Positions 1,539-26,736 of a stretch of DNA of 26,886 nt are shown piece by piece. Both the position numbers and the translations under genes were made by a program. How positions within the stretch are numbered: the stretch's first letter is position 1; each line of letters opens with the position of its first letter. Below the pieces are notes generated by a model. That model saw nothing but the letters and a program-made list of their open reading frames with translations. It was not told where the DNA came from and did no database searches. The stretch spans positions 1 through 26,886 of IMG/VR virus record IMGVR_UViG_3300020169_000093. One strand, written 5' to 3'. This DNA comes from a virus.

Positions 1539-1682
1539 ATGTCCTGGGAGCTTTCTATTCATAACCGCATTCACATCGGTTTTTGTTTTGGCTGGTCTTG
1601 GTACCCTAGGGATTCTGAGTTTGACCATTCAGAGTTTATTTTATTTTTTGGCTTGGTCAGCTTGAACTTAAAGATTTACTGA
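1539..1682 (+). CDS. Small phage protein, 47 aa
   Basis: A 47-residue frame runs from ATG 1539 to TGA 1680-1682. It is rich in aromatic and hydrophobic residues with charged spacing (begins MSWELSIHNRIHIGF; later SEFDHSEFILFFGLVSL). This pattern recalls small conserved phage proteins of unknown role with a WYP...YSEF-type core, but I assign no function. The stop overlaps the next start (TGATG at 1680-1684), so the two genes are translationally coupled. That coupling, together with the composition, is the main evidence that the frame is real. A -7 box lies just before the start. Confidence 0.65.
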   Translation: MSWELSIHNRIHIGFCFGWSWYPRDSEFDHSEFILFFGLVSLNLKIY

Positions 1683-1849
1683 TGTACGGATTAAAAGTAA
1701 AGGATGGTCGTTTAGTTAACGACCGTTTACCTGGCGAAACTGGTATTGCTCAGGCTGCTCGTTATTACAAAATGAAGAAGCGTTCTGAGAAAATATCGAT
1801 GATTGCCGACGCTATTAATTTAGCTGATATGCGTGAAGGCGATATGTAA
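1682..1849 (+). CDS. Small basic phage protein, 55 aa
   Basis: A 55-residue frame runs from ATG 1682 to TAA 1847-1849, coupled to the gene before it by a TGATG overlap. The protein has a short strand-like N-terminus (MYGLKVKDGRLVNDRLPGE) and a basic helical stretch (IAQAARYYKMKKRSEKISM) followed by an acidic amphipathic helix. The basic helix could bind nucleic acid or a partner, but there is no recognisable domain. A hairpin terminator follows 33 nt after the stop, so the two tiny genes form a complete short transcription unit. Confidence 0.65.
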   Translation: MYGLKVKDGRLVNDRLPGETGIAQAARYYKMKKRSEKISMIADAINLADMREGDM

Positions 1850-1882
1850 TTGGTTGTTTATTTTGTGTAGAGTTGTAGAGTT

Positions 1883-1908
1883 AAGAGAGGTCTGGGGGCC
1901 TCTTTTTT
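1883..1908 (+). terminator. Rho-independent terminator after the two tiny genes
   Basis: AAGAGAGG (1883-1890) pairs with CCTCTTTT (1899-1906) around an 8-nt G-rich loop, with one G-T wobble, and the stem runs into a T-rich tract (1903-1908). It closes the 1539-1849 unit and separates it from the protease gene. Confidence 0.75.
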
Positions 1909-1957
1909 CTTGCCCGTCTTTTTTGTGGGGTAAAAAATTTCGTTGATTTAGGCCAAA

Positions 1958-1976
1958 AGTGTAGAGAGTCTACACT
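1958..1976. promoter_or_regulatory. Perfect inverted repeat AGTGTAGA-3-TCTACACT, likely operator
   Basis: The arms are 8 bp and perfectly complementary around GAG. It contains two of the eight TGTAGA motifs in the gap and lies about 205 bp before the protease start. A dimeric DNA-binding protein is the simplest reading. It is not followed by a T-run, so it is a poor terminator. Confidence 0.5.
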
Positions 1977-2182
1977 AAAATGTAGAGTTTAAAAAAAGTC
2001 TACACAAAAAAATCCTAGTGTTTATGGTAGTTATAGAGTGAAGTGTTAAGAATGTTAAGTTTACTCTCTACTATAAGAGTTCAAGAAAAATATATATAGT
2101 AGTTATTGTCCATATATATATATAGGGAAAAAAGTCTACATTCTACATTGGTGATGTTGTGTTGTAATTTGGCAAAAAAAAT

Positions 2183-3235
2183 ATGCGGCTCTTACTTTTC
2201 TTTTTCTTTTTCCCGTGCGTGGTTTTCTCACAAGACGTTTGCGGCACTTCGTATGATTCTTCTCTTTATTTATTTCCTTCTTCTCGTATTTCTAACGAAT
2301 GGAAGGAGATACCTGTTGCGGTTCATATTTGTTATTCGGACAGTTTGGGGGGTTGGTTTAGCGAGGAGTATGTTGAGGAAGCGATTGCTGATTTAAATGC
2401 TGATATGTCTGAGGCTATGATATCGGTTGATTTGGTTCACGTCGGCTATAAAGATTTGGAGGATTACAGTTGGTATGACAGTTATGCTTTTAATCCTAAC
2501 GGCAATTGGTGCTTTCCTTTTTTCGGTACTCAGAACAGTATTTTAGCTACGGACTTATCTCTTCCTGACTGGGACCCTAATTATCATTGTAATATCTATG
2601 TGATACCAAAGATGTGCGCTGGGATACTGGGATGGTCTTACGTGACGGCTTCTGCTACGAATGCTCGCGACGGTATCTGGTTGCGTTCGGACATATTCGG
2701 TTTGGGCAGTGTTCACCCTCGCAATAACGAGAACAAAGTTTTGACTCACGAGATGGGTCATTACTGCGGTCTTCATCACGTTTTCCAATCTGTAAATTTC
2801 TGTGGTGATGACGGCGGCTTGCCTTGCGACGTTTGGGGAGATTTCGTTTGCGATACTCCTCCTACTAAGTTGCAATGGGAATGTGACCCTCCTATGTGTC
2901 CCGAGTCTTTATATAATTATACTGCTGACAACCATATGGATTACTACCCTGACTCGTGTCGTCACCACTTTACGCCTGGTCAGGTGGACCGTATGCACGA
3001 TATGTTGAGTTACCAGCGTGCGGGTTTATTTGGCGGCTACCCTATTTGTTTGGGCGACTGCAATGGCGATTATGTAGTTGGTATTTCTGACCTTATGCTT
3101 ATCCTTTCGTGCTGGGGCTCTGCTGGCTGTTTAGACGGCGACATAAACCAAAGCGGCTTAGTTAATATTTACGACTTAAATATGTTTTTGTCTTTGTACG
3201 GAACGATATGCGAGGGTAATATTTTGTGGAAATAG
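2183..3235 (+). CDS. Secreted M43 (pappalysin-like) zinc metalloprotease with dockerin-like C-terminus
   Basis: The 350-residue protein begins with a signal peptide (MRLLLFFFFFPCVVFS, probable cleavage before QDVCG). The catalytic domain carries the extended zinc motif HEMGHYCGLHH: zinc ligands H189, H193 and H199, catalytic E190. The Met-turn NHMDYYPDSC (Met252) is followed by HHFTPGQVDRM, which is typical of family M43. Several Cys residues suggest disulfides and export. Residues 291-340 hold two calcium-loop-like segments (GDCNGDYVVGISDLM and DGDINQSGLVNIYDLNMF), resembling a dockerin type I repeat pair. The role would be cleavage of extracellular or surface proteins; the target is unknown. 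The gene is alone between a multi-site control region and the chaperone promoter. The start is fixed by the signal peptide. Host-derived cargo is the likely origin. Confidence 0.88.
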   Translation: MRLLLFFFFFPCVVFSQDVCGTSYDSSLYLFPSSRISNEWKEIPVAVHICYSDSLGGWFSEEYVEEAIADLNADMSEAMISVDLVHVGYKDLEDYSWYDSYAFNPNGNWCFPFFGTQNSILATDLSLPDWDPNYHCNIYVIPKMCAGILGWSYVTASATNARDGIWLRSDIFGLGSVHPRNNENKVLTHEMGHYCGLHHVFQSVNFCGDDGGLPCDVWGDFVCDTPPTKLQWECDPPMCPESLYNYTADNHMDYYPDSCRHHFTPGQVDRMHDMLSYQRAGLFGGYPICLGDCNGDYVVGISDLMLILSCWGSAGCLDGDINQSGLVNIYDLNMFLSLYGTICEGNILWK

Positions 3236-3267: not shown

Positions 3268-4893
3268 ATGTTTACACCTAAGAATATCGTCTTTGACGAG
3301 GATGGCCGTTCAAAGTTGCGCGAAGGCATTACGAAGATGTCTAAAGCTGTCAAGAGCACTTTGGGTCCTAGCGGCCAAACTGTTATTATAGAATCGGAGC
3401 AGCATACTCACGGCATTACGGTTACTAAGGACGGCGTTACGGTTGCGAAATCTATCCACTTGCTGGACGCCGTTGAGAACTTGGCGGTACGTATTATGCG
3501 CGAGGCTTCGGAGCGTACGAGTACTCAGGCGGGCGACGGCACTACTACGGCTATCGTCTTGACGGAAGCTTTGATTAAGGTTACGGAGAGTTTTGTCAGC
3601 GACTATAGCGATATAAACAAGGCTGATTTCCTGCGGTTTCTTTCGGTATTGAGCGAGGAGACCATAGCTAGGGTGGGGGGTTCGGCAGTTGAGCTTACGG
3701 ACAAGAAGATGTTGGACGTGGCTACGATATCTGCAAATAACGACAAGGGGCTGGGCAAGATAATTTCTGACGTTTATCGTGCGGTCGGTGGTGACGGCGT
3801 GGTAACTGTGGAGAACGGTTTGCTTCCGTCTACGTATTACGAGGTTACTAAAGGTATGCGTTTTGAGCGTGGCTATACCTCTCCTCTTTTTGTAAATAAC
3901 CACGAGACGGACGAGTGTGTTTTGGAGGACTGTTACGTTATGGTATGTGGCAACGAGATAAACAGCCCTTTGCAGCTGGAGGGCGTGTTAAAGGAAATTA
4001 TCAGCGACAGGCATAAGTTGCTTTTGGTATCGCCTTGCTCTGTGAACTTCATTAATACGATGGCTGCTAACGTTATGAAAAACGGCATTAAGTTTTGCAA
4101 CGTTAACCCTCCGCAATTTGGTTGGAAGCAGGAGGAGGTGATGAGCGACTTGGCGCTATCGCTGGGCGCTAAATATTTCTCTGAGAAGACGGGCGACGAC
4201 TTGTCTTTAATTACGATGGCGGACCTCGGGTTTGCGAAGAAGGTAGTTGTGAAGCGCGACCATACCGTTGTTATGCGTGACGAGTCGAAGGTTGACCAAG
4301 GCGATATCGACCAGCGGGTAAAGGAGTTGCGGTCTGCTTTTGAGCATACAAATAAAAAAGACGAGAAGGATTTTTTCTTGGAGCGTATCGCGAGCTTGGC
4401 TGGCGGGGTCGGCGTTATTTATGTGGGCGGCAATACGGACTTGGAGCAGAAGGAGCGTTACGACAGGGTCGATGACGCGGTCTGTGCGGTTCGTTCTGCT
4501 TTGACCGAAGGTATTGTCCCTGGCGGCGGAGTGGCTTTGTTGGAGCAATCGTCTCGTTTGAGTGCTTATAGTTTGCGCAGAAAAATTTCTAGCGAAGAGT
4601 CGTTAGCGGCTAAGGTTTTGTCGATTGCTTTGGAGGCTCCGTTTATTCAGATAATTACAAACGCTGGTATCGATTCGGAAGAGGTCCTTAATAAAGTTAT
4701 AGATAGTCGCCGACGCGGATACGGCTTTAACGTAAAGACTCGTAAATATGGGAATATGATTCGCCAGGGCGTAGTTGACCCTGCTAAAGTTACTAAGAGC
4801 GCTTTACGCAACGCTATAAGCGTCGCTACTACAATACTGAGTACCAATGCAATTATCACATCAGCCCGTACCTATGAGGAAGCTAGTAAATGA
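3268..4893 (+). CDS. groL: Phage-encoded chaperonin GroEL (Hsp60)
   Basis: The 541-residue protein is close to the full GroEL length of about 545. Nucleotide-binding signatures are in place: TLGPSG at 31-36, TKDG with Asp55, GDGTTT with Asp90 (GroEL Asp87), PGGGVAL near 415 and a VDDAV segment whose Asp403 matches the hydrolysis residue Asp398. The C-terminal equatorial part has the expected YGFNVKTRKYGNMI and GVVDPAKVTKSALRNA blocks. The C-terminus ends TSARTYEEASK and lacks the GGM tail of bacterial GroEL. It is divergent from typical host GroEL in the apical domain, as phage chaperonins are. It starts a chaperone operon: the next gene overlaps its end, and a GroES-like gene follows. It likely folds virion or replication proteins in the infected cell. 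Confidence 0.95.
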   Translation: MFTPKNIVFDEDGRSKLREGITKMSKAVKSTLGPSGQTVIIESEQHTHGITVTKDGVTVAKSIHLLDAVENLAVRIMREASERTSTQAGDGTTTAIVLTEALIKVTESFVSDYSDINKADFLRFLSVLSEETIARVGGSAVELTDKKMLDVATISANNDKGLGKIISDVYRAVGGDGVVTVENGLLPSTYYEVTKGMRFERGYTSPLFVNNHETDECVLEDCYVMVCGNEINSPLQLEGVLKEIISDRHKLLLVSPCSVNFINTMAANVMKNGIKFCNVNPPQFGWKQEEVMSDLALSLGAKYFSEKTGDDLSLITMADLGFAKKVVVKRDHTVVMRDESKVDQGDIDQRVKELRSAFEHTNKKDEKDFFLERIASLAGGVGVIYVGGNTDLEQKERYDRVDDAVCAVRSALTEGIVPGGGVALLEQSSRLSAYSLRRKISSEESLAAKVLSIALEAPFIQIITNAGIDSEEVLNKVIDSRRRGYGFNVKTRKYGNMIRQGVVDPAKVTKSALRNAISVATTILSTNAIITSARTYEEASK

Positions 4894-5128
4894 TTGGCTT
4901 ACGGACATAGGGGAGGAATCTCTTTTTGCTGACGGATTTGACGACGCTATTATCGGCTTGTCGTATGACCCGCTTGCGGATAGCTACCGTGTGTGTTACA
5001 GCATTGACAAGTGCTACGATTGTTTGGTAAAGGACGACGAGATGTCTTTTGACGAAGCCGTCGAGTATTTTGAGTATAATGTCATAGGCTCGTATATGGG
5101 TCCTAGGACACCAATTTTTGTAATATGA
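4874..5128 (+). CDS. Conserved small phage protein, 84 aa, in the chaperone operon
   Basis: The preferred start is ATG 4874, giving 84 residues and a 20-nt overlap with groEL. An upstream ATG at 4847 would add nine residues and deepen the overlap. The protein is acidic and begins MRKLVNDWLTDIGEESL. Its C-terminal core (SFDEAVEYFEYNVIGSYMG, then TPIFVI) resembles small conserved proteins found in many tailed phages, for which I know no function. Its stop overlaps the GroES-like start (ATGA at 5125-5128), so it is translated with the chaperones. A role linked to folding or to a GroEL substrate is only guessed from position. Confidence 0.75.
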   Translation: MRKLVNDWLTDIGEESLFADGFDDAIIGLSYDPLADSYRVCYSIDKCYDCLVKDDEMSFDEAVEYFEYNVIGSYMGPRTPIFVI

Positions 5129-5382
5129 AGCCAATCAATAAATACCTTGTCATCGACCCTATCGACGAACAGTTTGTTTCTTCGTCTGGCTTGATTTTAT
5201 CTACGGAAGACGCTAAATCGTTTCGCTATAAAAAAGCTACGGTAGTAGAGTCTGGCACTCAGATAGATACGATACATAAAGGCGACGTCATCTATTACGA
5301 CAAGAACGCTGGTCACTCTATGATGATAGGCGACGTTACGTACACTATTATTCTTGAGAGGGACGTTGTTGTTGTCGTATAG
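5125..5382 (+). CDS. groS: GroES-like co-chaperonin (Cpn10), 85 aa
   Basis: The 85-residue protein has the GroES plan: an N-terminal strand (KPINKYLVIDPID), a mobile-loop region with the SSGLIL motif near 19-25 that should contact the GroEL apical domain, a KKATVVESG strand, a KGDVIYYDK turn matching the VGDIVIF region of GroES, and a C-terminal strand (TIILERDVVVVV). It is about 12 residues shorter than E. coli GroES. It follows groEL by one small gene and is coupled by ATGA. The acidic 26-30 segment varies in phage members of this family. Its last 35 nt overlap the end of the leftward winged-helix gene. Confidence 0.85.
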   Translation: MKPINKYLVIDPIDEQFVSSSGLILSTEDAKSFRYKKATVVESGTQIDTIHKGDVIYYDKNAGHSMMIGDVTYTIILERDVVVVV

Positions 5383-8478: not shown

Positions 8479-11400
8479 ATGAGCGGAACTATCATAGGTA
8501 TTGCTAACGCGTTTGGCGCCAGTATTTCGCCTGGCGCTGCTCAGGGTTCGGCTCCTGGCCCTCCCCCTAGTCAAGACCCTATGAATTTTTATGTCACCCC
8601 GTATAACTCGGCGGGGACTTCAACCCCTAGCGGTCAGTATAAACTTGGTTTGTACTCTACGGGCATTTATAATTTTACGGTTGATTGGGGCGATGGCAAT
8701 ACCGACGTTATTACATCGTATAACCAACCCGAGGTTACGCACGACTACGGAACGGTTTTGCCTACGGATAATTTTGAAATTACCATTACGCCTAACTCAC
8801 CGATTCGGCAACAGGCGGTAAACAGTTGGTATTTCGGAAATCGAAACGAAGGAGACGGGGTTAAAGTAAGGTCTATTGACCAGTTTGGCGCTACCCTTTT
8901 TTATGCTGACCAAGATATATTTTACGGATGTGAGGTCCTAGGTACTTTTGCTTCTACTATAAGCAACGTCCCCACTATTTTAAACAAGGTTATTGGAGAC
9001 GGATTTTTCTTTAATTGCGACGAGCTTGCCCCTGCTTTTTATACGGCTTACTGGGTAGGGCCATTTACTGGTACCGCAGAATCATTTAACGAAGGAAAAT
9101 CCGTTGCGGGGCTTCCTGTGGGAAATTCTAGAGGAAAGTTCGAGCTTGACTTTACTCCTACCAATATGTTTAGGGCGTTTAAAAATCAAGCGATTTTTAA
9201 CCAAAATGATGTAGGTCTTTACTGGGACGTTTCTAGCTGCAACAACTTTACGGAATGTTTTTCTTCTTGTTTGCGCTATAACCAGCCGTTTCCCAACTGG
9301 ACCTTTTTGACGGGTACGCCTGTTTTTGCGGCGGATATGTTTAAAAACGCCGTAGACTTCAATCAAAATATAACGGGTTGGAATACGTCTGCGTTTCAGG
9401 ATATGGGTGGGATGTTTGCCCGTACGTTGCCCGTTGGTTCGGGAGGGGTGACGGACTCTGTATTTAACCAAGCTATTGGCGTTTGGAATACAGATAACGT
9501 ACGCGACGCAAGCGCTATGTTTTTTAACGCCGTCAACTTCAACCAAGATTTAAGCAATTGGTTTAGTACGGGTTCTTTACAAAATATAGGCCCTAGCTCA
9601 GGCGGCATAGTAAGTATGTTTTCTGGCGCTACTTCTTTTAATAGCTCTGTAGCTAACTGGGACCTTACCAATCCTTTGCTTACTTCTGTTTCTTATGTTT
9701 TTAACGGCGCCACTTCATTTGACCAGCCTCTTAATTCGTGGGACGTTTCTGGCGTTTCTTTTTTTGTAGGCACTTTTAACGGCGCTACTGCATTCAACCA
9801 AAATTTAGCGCTTTGGGACGTTTCCTCGGGGCTATTTTTTAGTGAGATGTTTAAGGGCGCTACTTCTTTTGTGGGTACTTCGCTTACTTCGTGGAACGTG
9901 TCTTCTGCTACTGATATGCAGGATATGTTTAACGGGGCTACTTCTTTTACAAATTCACTTGTTTTTTGGAACCCGTCTAGCGTGACCAATATGTCGGGGA
10001 TGTTTAACGGCGCTACCCTTGCCAACCCCAACGTAAGCGGATGGAATATATCTAGCTTAGCGAACGCTTCGGATATGTTTACGAATAGCGGGCTCAGCTC
10101 TTTTAATTACCAAGCGCTTTTGGTGGCTTGGGCGGCTCAGGCTCCTAACATACAAAGCGGCGTAACGCTTTCTAGTATTAACCAATACGCAAACTTTGGC
10201 GCTCCTGCCGACGCCAAAGCGAAGTTGGTTAATGATTATGGATGGACTATTACCGACTTGGTAAACCCGAATTTGCCTCCGCCTGCTTTAACTTTTACTA
10301 TTGACACTACGGCTACCGAAGTCGGGAGCACGGCAAACAATCAATACCGCCTTCCTTTAATTTCATCTGGCACTTATGATTTTTACGTCCAGTGGGGCGA
10401 CGGCGATGCCGAGCAAATTACGAGTTGGAACCAAGCAGAAGCTACGCATACGTATGCTGCTGCGGGTACGTATACAGTAAAGATGTTTGCGGTAGCGGCA
10501 ACTACTACCCCTATTATCGACCATATTAGCTGGGCTTCTCAAGACGGCACTACGCTAAGTGCTGCCAACGACAGGCTTAAGGTTCAGGATATTTCTGAAT
10601 GGGCAGCGGCGGTTTTGTATCTCAACGAATATGTCTTTACTAATTGCGAAAATTTAAATATTACGACTACTTCTTCTCCTACTTTTGGAAGCAAGGTATT
10701 GAGGACGTCTGCTTTTGAAAATTGCGATAACTTAAGTGGTGATTTAAGTGGTTGGGGAACTGTTGCGTCTCCCATTACGGGCTTGGCGGGGAATTTTTAT
10801 AAAAACTCTACTTCCAACCCCAACTTTAATTTTGTTTTGCAGCATAACGTCGGGAGCCTTATACAGCCATTTCAAAATTGCGCGGCATTTAATAATCCTT
10901 TAAATAACTGGGACGTCTCTAGCGTTATCGGTTTTACGGCTGCTTTTAGTGGCGCTAGTGCTTTCAATCAAGATATTAGCGGTTGGGATACGGGCAATTC
11001 AAGTGCTTTTAACGCGATGTTTAGTAACGCTTTAGCGTTCAATCAAAACATTAGTTCTTGGAATGTTGCTAGCGTAACTACGTTTAGCCAAATGTTTCAA
11101 GGCGCCACTTTATTTAATCAACCTGTAGGGGCTTGGACGACTACGTCTTTAACGAATTTATTTTCAACGTTTAAGAACGCTGCTGCGTTTGACCAGGATT
11201 TAGCGAACTGGGACGTAAGCGGGGTTACTACTGCTGTCGATATGCTTACTGGCAGCAACATAAGTGCTGCTAACTGGGACGCTTTGCTTATTGGCTGGGC
11301 GGCTCAAGGGACTGGAGCGGGCTCTTTACAAGCTAATGTTACGCTATCGAATATCAACCAGCTCCACGGTTCGGTAGACTCGGCGGCTACAGCTGCTTAT

Positions 11401-14400
11401 AACAAGTTAACTTCTGCTCCATACAACTGGACTATTGTCGATTTGGGTGGCGCTCCTGTAGGGAACCTACTTTTGGACACTAGTTACGGAAGCGGAGCTG
11501 AGGCGGCTTACTCGGTCCGTAAGTTGCGCACCGCGTACACAGGGCCTGCTATGAAGGTCCAGGACACCGTAGGAGGCGCTACGCAGGACATTTACTTCGA
11601 TGCCAACGACAACCTTGACGAGGCGGCTATTATCTCTTATGGAGGCTCTAACGACGTTTTCGTAGAGACCTGGTACGACCAGAGTGGCAATGGGAACGAT
11701 GCCTCTCAAGCTACGTCCACTAGTCGTCCTAAGATTTACGACGGCACAACTGGCGCGTTGGTGAAAGAGAACGGAAAGGTGGCTTTGGACTTTGATGGGG
11801 CAAGCGATTATTTAAGCACTAGCAACGGGGTAGCAAACGACCCAGAATTAACCATATTTCAAACTTGCATTGCAACAGGTACAAACACTGGAGTCCAAAT
11901 AAATTATGCTTTACCGCAAATAGCAGGCTCGCACACTGACCCCTATGGGCGATTAATACTATTGCGCAGGTTTGGCGACACTATGATTACTCGATTGAAT
12001 GGAGGAACAACCAGTCAAGGTTCGGGAAGTTACCCGTTGTCAAAAACGTTATTTACTTTGAATTCAAAACAAGGTTTTGTCGATGCAAGCGGAACAAATA
12101 CGGGAACTTTTACGGGAGCAGATATAACTTATCCAAATTCTGTACCTTTTATAATTGGCGCAAACGGTGGCGCTGGTGAAAATTGGGAAGGCAAAAACCA
12201 AGAGATAATCGTTTATGCATCTGACAAATCAAGCGCAGACCAAACAAGCATCGAATCCAACGTCGGCGACTACTTCACCCAAAACACGCCACTACTCGAC
12301 ACGTATTCAGGTGCGGCGGCGGCGTACTCTTTGAGGCTTTTGGACTCGACGTATACAGGCTCAGCGGTACAGGTTCAGGATACGGTAGGTGGAGCAACTC
12401 AGGATATTGGGTTCAATGTATTCGGTGAGCTCGATACAGTTTCACTGGCTGCTTACGGGGGTTCTAATGATGTGTTTGTAGCTACCTGGTACGACCAGAG
12501 TGGTAACAGCAACGATGCTACACAGGGTACGTCTGCTAATCGTCCGAAGATTTACGACGGGACGACGGGCGTGGTGACGGAAGGCAGCGCAGGGAACGGA
12601 AAGCCTGCGGTGGAGTTCGATGGGTCGAACGATGTGTTAAAAACAAGTAGCGTTGTAATTAGCGGAACAGTCGGGCGCTCTATGTTTGTAATTGCTAAAG
12701 CCGACACGGTTGGAACGGATTCAATTTTCAGCTTAACAGACAACGGAAGCGGGACGGGTTCCTTGTGGCAGTTTACGCCCGAGGTTGCTATACGTGTAAC
12801 TGGAAGTCAAGTGTTTGCAAATAACCCAATAGACTCTCAAACGCTTGGTTCCGTGCATTTGGCTTCAAGTTCGAATATTGCCGACATTGAATATTTTGAA
12901 AACGGAACACAGGCGACCGCAACATCTTTGGGAACAACAGACCCAATCAATACTTCCAGTTTAGGTGTTAGCGAAATCGGCGGAAGCGATGACAAAGTAA
13001 CTTGGTTTTATGATGGTAATATTCAAGAAATTATTATGTACGGTTCTGACCAATCCGCCAACCGCGCAGGAATTGAAACCAACATCAACACGTTCTACGA
13101 CATCTATACTGAGCCTGTAGCGCCTTTGTTGTTGAATAACTATCCTGGCGCTGCTGCGGCTTACTCATTGCGTAGGATTAACTCTAGCTATCAGGGTTCT
13201 GCTGTACTGGTGCAGACGGCCCTTAACACTAAGGGACCAGTCTATATCGGCTTTGATTCCAATAACGACTTGGACACTACTTCATTGGCTGCCTACGGAG
13301 GTAGCGAAGACGTGGTGGTAGCGGGATGGTTGGACCAGTCTGGCAACGGGAACGATGCCTCTCAAGCTACGTCCGCTAATCGTCCTAAGATTTACGACGG
13401 TACGACGGGTGTTGTGACGGAGAACGGAAAGCCTGCGGTGCAGTTTGATGGGACGGATGACGAATTGAGTGTTAGTTCGTATCCGTTCAGCCAAAGCGAT
13501 ATTTACATAGCTTCTATTGGTAAGCATACTGACACAACAACCGAGGCAAACTTATATAGTTTCGGCACTGCCAGCACTATTTACGCCCTTGGGTTTAATA
13601 GAGACGCGGCATCAACATACAGCGCAACGCGATTTGTAGGTGCGCATGATGCACAAGGCGACAGTTACAATCAAACACAAAGCCTCTTTTCGCAACTTTA
13701 TGCAAGCTCTACAACAAGCGCATATTTAGATGGGGTTCAAGGAACCCAATCTTATACGTGTCGAGGGCGGTTTAATAGTAATTCCATAGGAGGCAGAGAT
13801 GGTCTATATTTTTTGAACGGCAACATCCAAGAGATAGTCATATATGACTCCGACCAATCCACCAACCGCACCGACATCGAAGACAACATCGGTGGCTACT
13901 ATGACATCCCGCTCCCAGGGCTCTTAGACGAGAACCCAGGAGCAGCAGCAGCTTACTCTTTACGTCGTCTAAGCTCAACGTACACAGGCAGTGCCATTCA
14001 AGTACAGCGTGCAGATAACGTAGGCGGTACGACTGACATCGGCTTCGATGGCTACGGAGACTTAGACACAGCTGCCTTGACGACAGCAGCAGCTGGCAAT
14101 GATATGGTGGTGGCTACGTGGTACGACCAGAGTGGCAATGGGAACGATGCCTCTCAAGCTACATCCGCTAATCGTCCTAAGATTTACGACGGGACGACGG
14201 GCGTAGTAACGGAGAACGGGAATCCTGCGGTTGAGTTTGATGGAACAAGTGATTATTTGAGTAATGCTGGAAATTTAACTTATACATCAGGACTTTCGAT
14301 TTATTCGGTCTCTAAATTCGATTCATTAAGTAATACTGAAAGACTGTTTTGTGACGACATCACAGGAGTGCAAGGGTTTTTTATTTATTCGAGTAGTGGA

Positions 14401-17079: not shown

Positions 17080-17105
17080 CTTTATAATATGAAATTTAAT
17101 TCTGA

Positions 17106-17139
17106 TTGCACTTTAAATACGGGGGTGAATTATACTTTG
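17106..17139 (+). promoter_or_regulatory. Promoter-like pair TTG ... TATACTTTG before the lysis cassette
   Basis: TTG at 17106-17108 lies 22 nt before TATACTTTG at 17131-17139. The -7 element is one base longer than the TAnnTTTG consensus (TA, three bases, TTTG), so it is a near match. It lies 30 nt before ATG 17170 and inside the longer frame that begins at 17089, which favours the shorter start for that gene. Confidence 0.35.
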
Positions 17140-17169
17140 ATTGAAAAAAACAAAGAGCAAAAAGAAAAT

Positions 17170-17376
17170 ATGAATTACGAACTTATATCAGTTGGCGTAG
17201 GCGCTGCTTCGGGTATTGTTACAACGTACGTCAAGATGCAGAGCGAAATTGTTAAAATTAAAAGCCGCCTTTATTCTTTAGAAAAACAAGAAACTAAAGT
17301 CCAGCAAACATTGGAGGTATTGCTTGAGGGCGTAAACGAGATTAAAATCTTGCTGGCTAAAAAAGGCATAGAGTGA
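17170..17376 (+). CDS. Small coiled-coil protein with possible N-terminal membrane segment, 68 aa
   Basis: The chosen start is ATG 17170 (MNYELISVG), giving 68 residues; an upstream ATG at 17089 would add 27 residues and run through the promoter-like element. The first 20 residues (ELISVGVGAASGIVTTYVKM) are weakly hydrophobic and could enter a membrane, followed by a coiled coil (EIVKIKSRLYSLEKQETKVQQTL). This layout recalls holin-associated or haemolysin-XhlA-like proteins near phage lysins, but the identity is not proven. It overlaps the next gene (GTGA). It likely belongs to the lysis cassette with the following three genes. Confidence 0.6.
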   Translation: MNYELISVGVGAASGIVTTYVKMQSEIVKIKSRLYSLEKQETKVQQTLEVLLEGVNEIKILLAKKGIE

Positions 17377-17462
17377 ATCGCCAAAAGCAATACAAAGACA
17401 GTCTATACCTTGTTAAGGTAGCTGTAATTGGGTTGGCCTTATGTTTAGTTTGTTTGTTATGA
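17373..17462 (+). CDS. Very small single-membrane-helix protein, 29 aa (GTG start)
   Basis: A 29-residue frame starts at GTG 17373-17375, overlapping the previous TGA, and stops at TGA 17460-17462 inside the ATGA of the amidase. The first 11 residues are polar and basic (MNRQKQYKDSL), followed by a hydrophobic helix (YLVKVAVIGLALCLVCLL) to the end. Both neighbouring overlaps support translation. Such a short transmembrane peptide beside an endolysin is consistent with a holin-like, spanin-like or lysis-control peptide. The reading as a real gene is fairly strong; the function is inferred. Confidence 0.6.
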   Translation: MNRQKQYKDSLYLVKVAVIGLALCLVCLL

Positions 17463-17878
17463 GAGATATAAGAAGAGTTATAATACATTGTTCTGCTACG
17501 CGAGAAGGCCAAGATATATCTGCGGAAACTATTCGGAGATGGCATACTTCTTCACCTCGCAATTGGTCAGATATTGGATATCATTTTGTTATAGAGCTAG
17601 ACGGAACGATAAAAAAGGGCAGGGATATCGATGAAAAAGGCAGCCACACAAAGGGAGAAAACTACGACTCTATTGGCGTGTGTTATATTGGGGGATTAGA
17701 AAGAGACGGCAAAACCCCTAAAGACACGATGACTGAAATGCAAGATATTTCAATGCTCGAACTCATTAAAAGTTTACGCCTTATTTTTGGGGAGTTAAGT
17801 ATCCACGGACATAATGAATATTCTAGTAAGGCTTGCCCTTCATTTCAGGTCCAGGAAAAATATGAATTTTTAAACTAA
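17459..17878 (+). CDS. Endolysin: T7-lysozyme-type N-acetylmuramoyl-L-alanine amidase (amidase_2)
   Basis: The chosen start ATG 17459 gives 139 residues; an upstream ATG at 17441 adds MFSLFV and overlaps the small membrane gene more deeply. Zinc ligands expected from T7 lysozyme (H17, H122, C130) match H10 in IIHCSAT, H118 in IHGHNEY and C126 in SKACPSF, with the same 8-residue H-to-C spacing. Catalytic Tyr46 matches Y41 in DIGYHFVI, and Lys128 matches K124. The enzyme cuts the amide bond between muramic acid and L-alanine in peptidoglycan. There is no signal peptide, so a holin-type partner should be needed. It sits between small membrane genes. Confidence 0.92.
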   Translation: MRDIRRVIIHCSATREGQDISAETIRRWHTSSPRNWSDIGYHFVIELDGTIKKGRDIDEKGSHTKGENYDSIGVCYIGGLERDGKTPKDTMTEMQDISMLELIKSLRLIFGELSIHGHNEYSSKACPSFQVQEKYEFLN

Positions 17879-21796: not shown

Positions 21797-22077
21797 ACGC
21801 GAAAGAACTCAAAGAAAAAATTATAGCTGCGGGTCACAAGGCGGTAGAGCAGCTTATTAAGGTAGCCAAAGAAGATATCATAAAGCCCGATATAGAAGAC
21901 GAGCTGGCCGCCGACAGGTTAAAGAACGCAGCGGCTACAAAAAAACTTGCTATATTCGATGCGCTAGAGATACTTAACCGTATTGAGCAGGAGAGAGAAA
22001 ATTTAGAGGCGATGGAAAAGCGTGGTGATTCATCTACTAATACCAAGCAAGGATTTGCGGAAAGACGTTCAAAATAA
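21793..22077 (+). CDS. Probable small terminase subunit, 94 aa
   Basis: The 94-residue protein starts at ATG 21793 (ATGA overlap) and ends at 22077, overlapping the TerL frame. It is helical and charged (begins MNAKELKEKIIAAGHKAVEQL; later LNRIEQERENLEAMEKRG) with the conserved-looking ending GFAERRSK. Small helical DNA-binding proteins in this position, directly before TerL, are typically TerS, which selects the packaging site. There is no recognisable helix-turn-helix by eye, so the name rests on position and composition. Confidence 0.65.
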   Translation: MNAKELKEKIIAAGHKAVEQLIKVAKEDIIKPDIEDELAADRLKNAAATKKLAIFDALEILNRIEQERENLEAMEKRGDSSTNTKQGFAERRSK

Positions 22078-24301
22078 ACTGCTTATTTATCTAAATGATA
22101 TAGTTCCCCAAAAGGTACTTACAAGGAAGAATAAAGCTAAAAGTTGGCAATACGGTTATAACGAAGACTATGACTTTGTCGTTATATCAAAAGACGGTAC
22201 GGTAGGTGATGTGGTAGAGATACAGGGCGTACGTATTGCACTCCCTATGGTTTGTAGTAACCCTATAGAGCGAAGCAAATCTAAAAAAGAACAGTACTGG
22301 CAGCCCTTAGAGTACCCTAAAGAACTTACACGTATCAAGACGATATTTCAGTGGAACGAGATGCCCGCTGATTTTAAAGACAGGTGGGTAGATTTCGTGG
22401 AGCGCGAGTTCGACAGACGTGAAAGCGGCGCCTGGTTTATGAATAATGGAGTCCCTACCTACATAACGGGCTCACACTATACGTACCTCCAGTGGACTAA
22501 AATTGACGTAGGGCTCCCTGACTTTCGAGAGGCCAACCGTATATTCTATATCTTCTGGGAGGCTTGCAAGGCAGACAGCCGATGTTTCGGTATGTGCTAC
22601 TTAAAGATTCGTCGTTCAGGATTTTCTTTTATGGGTTCTTCGGAATGCGTCAATATAGGAACTCTCGCTAAGGACGCTCGAGTTGGAATACTTTCTAAAA
22701 CGGGTGCTGACGCCAAAAAGATGTTTACCGATAAGGTGGTTCCTATATCAGCGAACTACCCGTTCTTTTTCAAGCCCATACAAGACGGTATGGATAAGCC
22801 CAAAACAGAGCTTGCATATCGGGTACCTGCGTCAAAGATTACCAAGCGCAATATGTACCTCGATGAGTCTGAAGAGCTTGACGGACTTGATACTACTATA
22901 GACTGGAAGAATACAGCCGACAACAGCTATGACGGAGAGAAGCTTTTGCTCTTGGTTCACGACGAAAGCGGTAAGTGGGAGAAGCCAGAGAATATCCTCA
23001 ATAACTGGCGCGTCACCAAAACTTGTTTGCGATTGGGTAGCCGCATCATAGGGAAGTGTATGATGGGTTCTACGTCCAACGCGCTAAGCAAAGGCGGTGG
23101 GAACTACAAAACGCTATACTCTCAATCTGACGTAAGCAACCGCAACGCTAACGGCCAGACCAAGAGCGGTATGTACAGCCTATTTATTCCTATGGAATGG
23201 AATTTTGAAGGGTATATCGATAGGTATGGTATGCCCGTATTTATAAAGCCTTTGCACGATGTTAAAGGTATTGACGGGCAGTCTATAAAGATGGGGGCTA
23301 TTGAGTATTGGGAAAACGAGGTAGCTTCACTTAAGAACGACCCTGATGCGCTCAACGAGTTCTATCGTCAATTCCCGCGTACTGAGTCCCACGCTTTTCG
23401 TGACGAGAGTAAGCAGTCTATATTTAACCTGACTAAGATATATCAGCAAATTGACTATAACGACGAGATGATAAAGGAGCACTACCTTACTAGGGGTTCT
23501 TTTCATTGGAAAGACGGCCAAAAAGACAGCCAAGTTATATGGACGCCAGAGCGTAACGGTCGTTTTCTTTTGGGGTGGACGCCTCCCGCTAGGATGCAAA
23601 ACCACGTCATTATTCGTAACGGGATGAAGTACCCTGGCAATGAGCATATCGGCTCGCTGGGGTGTGACCCGTACGATATCTCGGGTGTCGTAGGGGGGAG
23701 GGGCTCAAACGGCTCTCTCCACGGGATGACTAAATTCAATATGGACGATGCGCCGAGTAACGAGTTTTTTTTAGAGTATGTCGCTCGTCCTCAGACGGCA
23801 GAGATATTTTTTGAAGAGGTACTGATGGCTTGCGTTTTTTATGGTATGCCTATCCTTACGGAGAATAATAAACCGAGGCTGCTCTACCACTTTAAGAATA
23901 GAGGCTACCGCAAGTTTTCTATGAACCGCCCCGACAAAAAATTCAATAAGCTGTCCAAGACGGAAAAGGAGTTAGGCGGCATACCGAATACATCTGAAGA
24001 CGTTAAGCAGTCTCACGCTTCAGCTATCGAGACGTATATCGAGAAACACGTTGGCATTGATATGGAAGGGACGTACCGAGAACAGGGCGATATAGGTACT
24101 ATGCCATTTACTAGGACGCTCGAAGATTGGGCTAAATTTGATATCAACAACAGGACTCGATTTGACGCTACGATAAGCTCGGGATTGGCTATTATGGCTA
24201 ACCAAAAACACATCTATCAACCTGTTGAAAAGCAATCGAAATTATCTGTTACCTTTGCTAGATACAACAATCGTGGAAATATAAGCGAACTAGTTAAATA
24301 A
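22022..24301 (+). CDS. terL: Terminase large subunit (TerL)
   Basis: The frame from GTG 22022 gives 759 residues and overlaps the previous gene by 56 nt; a start nearer the conserved KDLRKDVQNK (for example TTG 22055) is possible. The ATPase domain shows RRSGFS at 197-202 in the Walker A position, where the usual GK[ST] lysine is absent, a Walker B-like LLLVHDES (Asp314, Glu315) and a motif-C-like MMGSTSN at 347-353. The nuclease domain has GCDPYD (Asp549), TENNKPR (Glu614) and DVKQSH (Asp660) as candidate metal ligands. TerL pumps and cuts DNA at the portal. Its stop overlaps the portal start (TAATG). Size and sequence style resemble crAss-like and related Bacteroidetes phages. Confidence 0.9.
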   Translation: MVIHLLIPSKDLRKDVQNKLLIYLNDIVPQKVLTRKNKAKSWQYGYNEDYDFVVISKDGTVGDVVEIQGVRIALPMVCSNPIERSKSKKEQYWQPLEYPKELTRIKTIFQWNEMPADFKDRWVDFVEREFDRRESGAWFMNNGVPTYITGSHYTYLQWTKIDVGLPDFREANRIFYIFWEACKADSRCFGMCYLKIRRSGFSFMGSSECVNIGTLAKDARVGILSKTGADAKKMFTDKVVPISANYPFFFKPIQDGMDKPKTELAYRVPASKITKRNMYLDESEELDGLDTTIDWKNTADNSYDGEKLLLLVHDESGKWEKPENILNNWRVTKTCLRLGSRIIGKCMMGSTSNALSKGGGNYKTLYSQSDVSNRNANGQTKSGMYSLFIPMEWNFEGYIDRYGMPVFIKPLHDVKGIDGQSIKMGAIEYWENEVASLKNDPDALNEFYRQFPRTESHAFRDESKQSIFNLTKIYQQIDYNDEMIKEHYLTRGSFHWKDGQKDSQVIWTPERNGRFLLGWTPPARMQNHVIIRNGMKYPGNEHIGSLGCDPYDISGVVGGRGSNGSLHGMTKFNMDDAPSNEFFLEYVARPQTAEIFFEEVLMACVFYGMPILTENNKPRLLYHFKNRGYRKFSMNRPDKKFNKLSKTEKELGGIPNTSEDVKQSHASAIETYIEKHVGIDMEGTYREQGDIGTMPFTRTLEDWAKFDINNRTRFDATISSGLAIMANQKHIYQPVEKQSKLSVTFARYNNRGNISELVK

Positions 24302-26736
24302 TGAGAGATGTTCAGGTTAATATAGCATCTGCCTCGTTCCCTACCCAATTTGTTTCTGACGCTGAAAAAGCGACTTATGAGTATGGATTGCAGATTGGAC
24401 AAGCCATTCAATATGAGTGGTTTAAGAGGGATGGAAACGGTTGTCGTTTTTACAGTCAATGGAGAGATTTTAATCGACTCCGATTGTACGCTAGAGGAGA
24501 GCAGTCTATTGCTAAGTACAAAAACGAACTCTCGGTCGATGGCGACCTTTCTTATTTGAACCTGGACTGGACTCCGATTCCAATCATCCCTAAGTTCGTA
24601 GATATCGTAGTCAACGGTATGTCGGACCGCTTGTTTGACGTAAAGGCTTATGCTCAAGACGCTATGTCGTCGGCGAAGCGCAGTAAGTATCAAGATATGA
24701 TAGAGGCTCAGATGGTCTCTAAAGACCTTTTGGTGCAAATCAAAGAAAGCTTTGGCGTAGACCCTTTTACCGTGTCTCCTGACGAGCTTCCCAATAGCGA
24801 TGACGAGTTGTCGCTGTATATGCAACTCAACTATAAGCCAGCTATCGAAATAGCAGAGGAAGAGGCTATCAATACGCTGCTTGAGCAAAACAAATACAAC
24901 GACACGCGCCAGCGCGTAGACTACGACCTTACGGTTTTAGGCGTCGGTATGGTCAAGCACGAGTTCTTAAAGGGCGACGGGGTACAGGTTAGATATGTAG
25001 ACCCCGCAAACGTGGTATATAGTTATACTGAAGACCCGTTTTTTCAGGATAATTTTTACTGGGGAGAAATTAAGACAGTTCCTATCACTGAGCTTATCAA
25101 GATAGACCCTACGCTTACTACGGATGACCTCAAGGAAATTTCAAAGCATTCCCAGAGCTGGTACGATTATTATAACGTACAGCAATTCTACGATAACGAT
25201 ATCTTCTATCAAGATACCACTACCCTTATGTACTTCAACTACAAGACAACGCAGAAGTTTGTCTATAAGAAGAAGGTGATGGATGGTGGAGGAGCCAAGG
25301 TGGTTGAGAAAGACGATACGTTTAACCCGCCAGAAGAGATGATGCAGGAGGGTCGATTCGAAAAAATCGAAAAGACTATCGATGTGTGGTATGAAGGCGT
25401 TATGGTTATGGGGACTAATATTATTCTTAAGTGGGAGATGGCGGAAAATATGGTCCGCCCTAAATCTGCATCGCAGTACGCTACGCCAAATTACTTGGCT
25501 TGTGCGCCACGTATGTACAAGGGTAATATCGAATCTTTGGTTCGGCGTATGATTCCTTTGGCGGACCAGATACAGATTACCCACCTTAAATTACAGCAAG
25601 TAATGTCGCGCATCGTCCCTGACGGTGTGTTCATTGATGCTGACGGACTTAACGAAGTAGACCTCGGGACAGGCAATGCATACAACCCCGAGGACGCCTT
25701 GCGGCTGTACTTCCAGACGGGTAGCGTAGTCGGGCGTAGCTATACACAGGATGGCGAGTTTAATAACGCTCGAGTACCTATTCAGCAACTCACCAGCAAC
25801 TCGGGGCAGTCTAAGATTAGCGCTTTAATTGGGAACTACAATCACTATCTCAATATGATACGTGATATTACGGGCCTCAACGAAGCGCGTGATGGCTCTA
25901 TGCCTGACCCTAATTCGCTCGTAGGGGTACAAAAGCTAGCGGCACTAAACTCTAACGTAGCTACTCGACATATCTTAGATGGTAGCTTATTTATCTTGAA
26001 GTCGTTGGCTGAAGCTTTGTCGTGCAGGGTAGCCGACATCCTGGAGTATGCGGATTTCAAGGAAGAGTTTGCTAATCAAATCGGCAAGTATAATGTTTCT
26101 ATCTTAAACGATATCAAAGATTTATATATCTACGATTTCGGTGTCTTTATTGAGATAGCTCCTGACGAAGAGCAGCGGGCTATGCTAGAGCAGAATATCC
26201 AGATGGCTTTATCTAAGAACGACATTAACTTGGAGGACGCTATCGATATCAGAGAAATTAAAAACATTAAGTTGGCAAACCAACTCCTCAAGCTCAAGCG
26301 CAAGAAGAAGCAAGAGCGCGAGGAAGCTATGCAACTTCAACAGCAGCAGATGCAGGCTCAGCAGCAGTTCGAGTCGCAGAAGTTAGCCACGGAGGCTCAG
26401 ATGATGAAGATACAGGCTGAAGGTCAGCAGAAAGTGCAGATTAAGCAGGCCGAGGTGGCTTTTGATATTGAGCGTATGCAGATGGAAGCCCAGCTTAAAA
26501 ACCAGTTGATGCAGCAGGAGTTTAATTACAATATGCAGCTCAAGGGTGTAACTGAGGAACTTATTGCTGGACGAGAGGATATGCGTGAAGACGCTAAAGC
26601 AAAGCGTATTAGCCAGCAGAATACAGAGCAGTCGAAACTAATTAATCAGCGTAAGAATAACTTACCGCCTATCAATTTTGAATCAAATGAGGATAGCCTT
26701 GATGGCTTTGACCTTGCTGAGTTCGAGCCACGATGA
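24301..26736 (+). CDS. Portal protein
   Basis: The 811-residue protein starts at ATG 24301, inside the TerL stop. Its N-terminal region has the portal-like mix of helices and aromatic residues (YEWFKRDGNGCRFY, then LNLDWTPIPIIPKFVDIVVNGMSDRLF). The middle includes typical wing/stem segments (IEEEAINTLLEQNKYNDT-like and VRYVDPANVVYSY). From about residue 680 the C-terminal tail is a Gln-rich coiled coil (LQQQQMQAQQQFESQKL), followed by a disordered, acidic end (SNEDSLDGFDLAEFEPR). Portal proteins form the dodecameric DNA gate at one vertex. Size and position after TerL support the call; the Gln-rich tail may reach into the virion or bind the scaffold. Confidence 0.88.
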   Translation: MRDVQVNIASASFPTQFVSDAEKATYEYGLQIGQAIQYEWFKRDGNGCRFYSQWRDFNRLRLYARGEQSIAKYKNELSVDGDLSYLNLDWTPIPIIPKFVDIVVNGMSDRLFDVKAYAQDAMSSAKRSKYQDMIEAQMVSKDLLVQIKESFGVDPFTVSPDELPNSDDELSLYMQLNYKPAIEIAEEEAINTLLEQNKYNDTRQRVDYDLTVLGVGMVKHEFLKGDGVQVRYVDPANVVYSYTEDPFFQDNFYWGEIKTVPITELIKIDPTLTTDDLKEISKHSQSWYDYYNVQQFYDNDIFYQDTTTLMYFNYKTTQKFVYKKKVMDGGGAKVVEKDDTFNPPEEMMQEGRFEKIEKTIDVWYEGVMVMGTNIILKWEMAENMVRPKSASQYATPNYLACAPRMYKGNIESLVRRMIPLADQIQITHLKLQQVMSRIVPDGVFIDADGLNEVDLGTGNAYNPEDALRLYFQTGSVVGRSYTQDGEFNNARVPIQQLTSNSGQSKISALIGNYNHYLNMIRDITGLNEARDGSMPDPNSLVGVQKLAALNSNVATRHILDGSLFILKSLAEALSCRVADILEYADFKEEFANQIGKYNVSILNDIKDLYIYDFGVFIEIAPDEEQRAMLEQNIQMALSKNDINLEDAIDIREIKNIKLANQLLKLKRKKKQEREEAMQLQQQQMQAQQQFESQKLATEAQMMKIQAEGQQKVQIKQAEVAFDIERMQMEAQLKNQLMQQEFNYNMQLKGVTEELIAGREDMREDAKAKRISQQNTEQSKLINQRKNNLPPINFESNEDSLDGFDLAEFEPR

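Follow-up and report, generated by a model that had tools for sequence, protein, structure and literature searches.

A phage-owned gene for a predicted secreted metalloprotease of the pappalysin (M43) family is present in the window analyzed here, the whole 26,886-nucleotide stretch of virus record IMGVR_UViG_3300020169_000093, and its viral relatives form a single virus-only branch with an architecture of its own. Because these phage relatives usually sit among lysis genes, a neighborhood from which we infer participation in lysis, the product is probably not a stray bacterial enzyme but a late envelope-attacking one.

Sequence comparison and structural modeling concur that the gene encodes an M43 protease precursor with predicted proteolytic activity (Table 1). 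The protein scores 52 bits against the Peptidase_M43 profile (curated cutoff 23), and a phmmer search identifies ulilysin and mirolysin as the closest solved structures (E about 1e-8). The HExxHxxGxxH signature is made up of H189, E190, H193, G196 and H199, and all but the glycine, together with M252 of the Met-turn, are invariant in an alignment of 79 viral and cellular M43 relatives. With this alignment as input, AlphaFold produced a model with a pLDDT of 81.7 and a pTM of 0.81, which was used instead of a model from 21 sequences (pLDDT 63.6); residues 37-285 of the former match mature mirolysin with a Z-score of 23.8 and an rmsd of 2.4 A over about 220 residues. The top 18 structural matches of the model are mirolysin, ulilysin and PAPP-A (Z 19-24), whereas the next ones, snake-venom and ADAM metzincins, reach only Z 14-15 (14.6). 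The preliminary description of this DNA, which had reported an M43 protease with a full zinc motif and Met-turn, is thus confirmed, down to the exact coordinates. Given that D257 occupies the position of the S1' Asp289 of mirolysin, a preference for Arg or Lys in P1' is expected of the window enzyme; a freshwater branch of the family has Glu in place of this Asp.

Table 1. Features of the window that bear on the M43 protease gene and its phage context
Feature	Position	Strand	Evidence
Conserved 55-aa ORF upstream of the control region	1682..1849	+	cluster 46, alignment; present in related phages
Cluster of 8 TGTAGA/TCTACA sites, putative operators	1866..2147	.	hexamer count, conservation
M43 (pappalysin-family) metalloprotease gene, 350 aa	2183..3235	+	PF05572 E 9.6e-14
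Predicted Sec signal peptide, residues 1-16	2183..2230	+	sequence; cleavage predicted before Gln17
Cys20, candidate cysteine-switch residue in short pro-segment (VCGT)	2240..2242	+	conservation; mirolysin precedent
Catalytic domain, residues 38-285	2294..3037	+	AlphaFold model, alignment to mirolysin 37-285
Zinc-binding motif HEMGHYCGLHH, residues 189-199	2747..2779	+	sequence, alignment
Met-turn NHMDYY, residues 250-255	2930..2947	+	sequence
D257, counterpart of mirolysin S1' Asp289	2951-2953	+	alignment; PMC6949598
Dockerin-like tail, two EF-hand-type loop-helix units, residues 289-343	3047..3211	+	sequence, model, PDB search
Phage GroEL, 32 bp 3' of M43	3268..4893	+	phrog_5725 E 2e-131
g4847, phrog_13182	4847..5128	+	PHROG match
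Phage GroES	5125..5382	+	phrog_3188, Cpn10
Small TM + coiled-coil protein, candidate holin or inner spanin	17089..17376	+	phrog_1296 holin E 6e-4
N-acetylmuramoyl-L-alanine amidase (endolysin)	17441..17878	+	phrog_822 E 8e-53
Terminase large subunit	22022..24301	+	phrog_6681 E 9e-180
Portal protein	24301..26736	+	phrog_6547 E 3e-148

Mirolysin of Tannerella forsythia and ulilysin of Methanosarcina share with the window protein the fold (Z 23-24), the zinc motif, the Met-turn, the position of the S1' Asp and a short pro-segment with a Cys-Gly motif (PMC6949598). In contrast to them, the window protein, which is about 24% identical, has a pro-segment of about 20 rather than 34 residues and a dockerin-like tail, is encoded by a phage, and belongs to a family often accompanied by lysis genes. 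An M43-like fold is also found in ulilysin-like proteins of the giant viruses Tupanvirus and Yasminevirus (BFVD; Foldseek E 2e-13), although these are viruses of eukaryotes and the context is unrelated.

The signal peptide noticed previously can be specified further. It reads MRLLLFFFFFPCVVFS, and the cut is predicted, by sequence, between MRLLLFFFFFPCVVFS and Q17, a residue that is invariant across the aligned relatives; a small residue followed by Gln after a hydrophobic run is found in 98 of 101 viral relatives, the other 3 being start mis-calls. A Gln as the first residue behind the signal cleavage site is known as the Q-rule of Bacteroidetes (PMC5837995, PMC10653852), and Q-rule proteins of unknown function have been reported in phages of Porphyromonas gingivalis (PMC10367356). 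The window protein is accordingly predicted to be exported as a Bacteroidota-type Sec/SPI substrate. Furthermore, 97 of 98 viral relatives have a Cys no more than 25 residues from the mature N-terminus, with the neighboring Gly being variable. Given this conservation and the precedent of promirolysin, in which Cys23-Gly24 of the pro-segment plugs the zinc (PMC6949598), the zymogen is probably kept latent by a cysteine switch; residues 17-34, including Cys20, fall in a low-confidence region of the AlphaFold model (pLDDT under 50).

The C-terminal 55 residues appear from sequence and model to be dockerin-like. We prefer this label to dockerin because the curated cutoffs are missed (PF00404, 15.2 against 22.9; NF041540, 18.6 against 29), though a PDB search with the tail alone returned dockerins for the most part (best E 0.005). 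The calcium-loop-like repeats reported earlier correspond to two loop-helix units with EF-hand-type spacing of the putative calcium ligands, D292/N294/D296/D303 and D320/N322/S324/D331, and with modeled helices at 301-309 and 329-338. Such tails had been thought typical of free-living marine Bacteroidetes; in our sample they are instead a viral feature, dockerin-like loops being present in 49 of 52 viral but 1 of 69 cellular tails, as judged with one crude pattern for both sets. By a similarly crude common pattern, 41 of 69 tails in the cellular set and 13 of 52 in the viral set end in what resembles the sorting signal of the type IX secretion system (T9SS), the viral cases having no HMM support from Pfam or NCBIfam. 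The window protein has no match to the T9SS sorting-domain models of these collections at E 0.1 or better, and both its own branch and the freshwater branch are devoid of a T9SS-like end. One group of viral loci (L039-L057) encodes M43 proteins of 660-700 aa with an extra middle region in addition to the dockerin-like pair; their C-termini look like T9SS sorting signals by eye, whereas the Pfam and NCBIfam models give no match. These proteins are possible phage-encoded T9SS cargo, and the ends, if genuine, would mean export to the cell surface before lysis.

With respect to ownership, the gene belongs to the phage. The order m1-M43-GroEL-g4847-GroES is kept in three related loci from other metagenomes (L001, L002 and L009), and the order M43-GroEL-GroES in three more (L003-L005), also from other metagenomes. 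The L001 contig (64,532 bp) carries the same 127-bp direct repeat at both ends and is therefore probably complete; its portal protein is 98.8% and its terminase 96% identical to those of the window. A relative of the window terminase occurs on 14 of the 21 M43-bearing contigs tested; M43 and terminase are found together on complete or near-complete phage contigs. Mis-assembly of bacterial DNA into a phage contig, a danger raised in the preliminary description and in line with a GC step near position 1500, is rejected in view of this recurring synteny on independent contigs and the terminal redundancy of L001. The m1-M43-GroEL order spans the junction in L001, L002 and L009, and no close cellular homologue turned up in about 85,000 species genomes; we regard such an artifact as exceedingly improbable. 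The minus-strand genes in positions 1-1300 have a GC3 of about 0.70, compared with about 0.45-0.55 in the late genes; synteny places them in the same phage despite this difference.

The gene is under purifying selection: between the window and L002, dN is 0.215 and dS 1.30 (dN/dS about 0.17), and between L003 and L005 the values are 0.023 and 0.406. Relative to L001, M43 (76% identity) has diverged about as much as the amidase (66%) and the XhlA-like protein (73%), and far faster than the terminase (96%) and the portal protein (99%), which counts in favor of the lysis reading proposed below. Among the most divergent genes is the one at 8479-16269 (56% against L001); to the eye, its 2596-aa product, a probable adhesion fiber, has PKD-like and DUF285/BspA-like repeats as well as several LamG-like ones that are nearly identical. 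The terminase is 73% identical to that of Podoviridae ctfjg026 and about 37-44% identical to those of Elemovirus and Cellulophaga phages, and on the strength of these nearest relatives a flavobacterial host is likely. In the contig of L037 (G016), the terminase reading frame (51522-53597) contains one in-frame TGA, possibly a case of recoding, a frameshift error or a broken gene.

Upstream of the protease gene, 8 of the 15 TGTAGA/TCTACA hexamers of the window are clustered within 1866-2147, in agreement with the multi-site control region described before. L002 and L009 keep a palindrome at 1958-1976, AGTGTAGA-GAG-TCTACACT, whose two arms have changed together in L001 (GTGTCGA/TCGACAC). This is what operators of a dimeric regulator would be expected to show, and the co-varying arms suggest a phage repressor or activator with changed specificity. 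A scan for Bacteroidetes -33/-7 promoters yielded no site 5' of M43, with matches near chance level. The gene had been described as standing alone, with a timing that may differ from that of the structural genes; it actually leads a same-strand chaperonin run, M43-GroEL-g4847-GroES, which is retained in L001, L002 and L009, and the control region appears to serve the entire M43-GroEL-GroES run rather than M43 alone.

Comparison with phage and host genomes, including a tree, had been recommended at the outset. An IMG/VR scan with the single window sequence retrieved 57 loci, and a scan with an alignment 158 confirmed places, of which the best 80 were kept; altogether, these viral contig scans show that uncultured phages, whose hosts appear to be Bacteroidota, carry over 100 relatives. 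Conversely, one scan covering about 85,000 species genomes of bacteria and archaea detected no close cellular homologue: over comparable length, identity peaked at about 33%. A quick maximum-likelihood tree built from 124 catalytic domains sets 45 viral rows against 79 cellular rows with an SH-aLRT of 99, and the viral relatives make up one virus-only branch. In one phage contig (L175), two M43 genes that have diverged from each other lie side by side. Secreted Bacteroidota proteases of the M43 family (L059-L138), with which the window protein has the signal peptide and the M43 domain in common, are the probable evolutionary source of the phage family, although they differ from it in their longer multidomain tails, frequent T9SS-like ends (41/69) and near lack of dockerin-like loops (1/69).

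Lysis genes are frequent neighbors of the viral M43 genes. In the set dereplicated at 80% identity, 25 of 49 M43 genes directly adjoin a gene for a holin, an XhlA-like protein or an endolysin, compared with 50 of the 790 remaining genes in these loci (6.3%; Fisher 1e-15, a value overstated because of kinship among the loci). At 60% the counts are 5 of 12 and 13 of 254 (5.1%), with a p of 5e-4 that is likewise overstated, related loci not being independent; at 50%, where only holin and endolysin genes were counted, p lies in the range 0.05-0.09 and significance is no longer clear. The variety of arrangements is the stronger argument. In many relatives, M43 is preceded by a gene for a 142-154 aa protein that matches the PHROG 3427 holin (E 1e-16 to 5e-21), and in others by one for a 67-71 aa TM and coiled-coil protein with a weak holin or inner-spanin match. 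The PHROG-3427 holin or XhlA-like gene overlaps the beginning of M43, stop codon against start codon, in about 17 of the 49 dereplicated loci, and in many relatives translation of M43 is coupled to that of a holin or a holin-like gene. The order M43, small holin-like gene, M15 endolysin is seen in L051 and L054; an amidase follows M43 in L053, and an M15 endolysin precedes it in L031, L032 and L038. Homologues of the candidate holin or inner spanin of the window overlap M43 in L006, L051, L053 and L054, and in L006 the XhlA-like protein also has a weak match to an Rz-like inner spanin (E 0.0025). Thus, the earlier view that the protease belongs to no phage module does not hold for most other branches, where M43 lies in lysis modules; the window's own branch (window, L001-L005, L009) is the exception, with GroEL as the neighbor of M43 and about 14 kb between M43 and the amidase.

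A search of six M43-positive contigs and three M43-negative relatives for a unimolecular spanin (a lipobox ORF with a C-terminal TM) gave no convincing candidate; small lipoproteins of unknown role are present in both sets. In L161, L149, L212, L170 and L193, a gene for an exported protein of 104-107 aa, thioredoxin-like by eye and without a Pfam or PHROG match, directly precedes M43 and so lies between holin/TM genes and the cysteine-rich protease. In L037 (11155-15264) and L034, a very large ORF (1140-1369 aa) overlaps the M43 end.

We propose, with confidence that is evenly poised, that the phage M43 protein is exported through Sec as a zymogen and assists the lysis programme by attacking proteins of the envelope or surface at a late stage of infection. 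The association with lysis genes is one of neighborhood, not function, and we infer the latency, activation, substrate and part in lysis of the enzyme. Sec export and cleavage by signal peptidase I would deliver it, with an N-terminal Gln, to the periplasm of the Bacteroidota host, where the conserved Cys behind the signal peptide would hold it latent through a cysteine switch. The zymogen would accumulate there and, once activated at or near lysis, could cut host envelope or surface proteins, loosening the outer membrane or periplasmic protein layer, or freeing virions from debris, when holin and endolysin have acted. Since the window and freshwater branches are without a T9SS-like end, retention in the periplasm until the outer membrane fails is favored.

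The main rival, which we consider possible but somewhat unlikely, is compatible with most of these observations. In this view the protease, set free once the cell has lysed or else exported beforehand, would digest extracellular matrix, capsule-associated or surface proteins and thereby clear away debris and decoy receptors, allowing progeny to spread, or block superinfection. In its favor, the cellular relatives are M43 proteases that are secreted, modules of the dockerin-like kind often serve in binding, and the L039-L057 branch has the T9SS-like ends noted by eye. Moreover, such a role was proposed by the authors for the zinc metallopeptidase of Maribacter phage Molly (PMC8776804). The Molly/Colly enzyme is likewise an exported zinc enzyme of marine flavobacterial phages, but it is unrelated, being a 199-aa lipoprotein called matrixin-like (PMC8776804) with only a weak structural match to the window protein (Foldseek E 5e-5). 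Cryophage also encodes T9SS cargo bound outside the Bacteroidota cell; this consists of glycosidases and a PA14 protein with a T9SS CTD (PMC7468147), whereas the window protein has no CTD. The lack of a T9SS-like end in the window and freshwater branches argues against export to the surface, and the repeated holin coupling points to a lysis step, though release at lysis would also fit it.

In many relatives M43 lies just behind very large fiber-like or virion genes (clusters 10, 34 and 47). Conceivably, then, the enzyme processes phage proteins, such as a tail fiber or adhesin, during or after release; we deem this improbable, as the signal peptide takes the protease out of the cytoplasm, where virions assemble. 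Equally improbable in our judgment is host-fitness cargo (a moron) that provides nutrient access or an interbacterial advantage in lysogeny or pseudolysogeny. The gene does have an accessory distribution, being present in L001-L005 and L009, while a search of phage records found no M43 match in the close phages Podoviridae ctfjg026, Elemovirus and Cellulophaga phi18:3; but the single old virus-only branch, the coupling to late lysis genes and the lack of an integrase among the genes examined weigh against cargo. Under the preferred reading, as a late accessory of lysis, the same distribution indicates that M43 is not essential for lysis in this phage group.

Among about 50,700 phage records, the sole M43 match is weak and partial, and the family is missing from PHROGs; for this reason, its members are today probably annotated as hypothetical proteins or mistaken for host DNA. 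A literature search over a limited range of terms found no published description of phage M43 proteases. How Bacteroidota phages pass the outer membrane is poorly worked out, and a 2025 survey reports only unimolecular spanins in these phages (PMC12596118). With its repeated coupling to holin genes, this virus-only family of proteases is a concrete candidate for proteolytic breakdown of the envelope. More doubtful is the prospect that Bacteroidota phages regularly rely for lysis on a latent exported metalloprotease that takes apart the outer membrane/periplasmic protein layer enzymatically, a third lysis step that elsewhere falls to spanins. If the proposed role is true, viral lysis in lakes and seas would set free active protease along with the contents of the cells.
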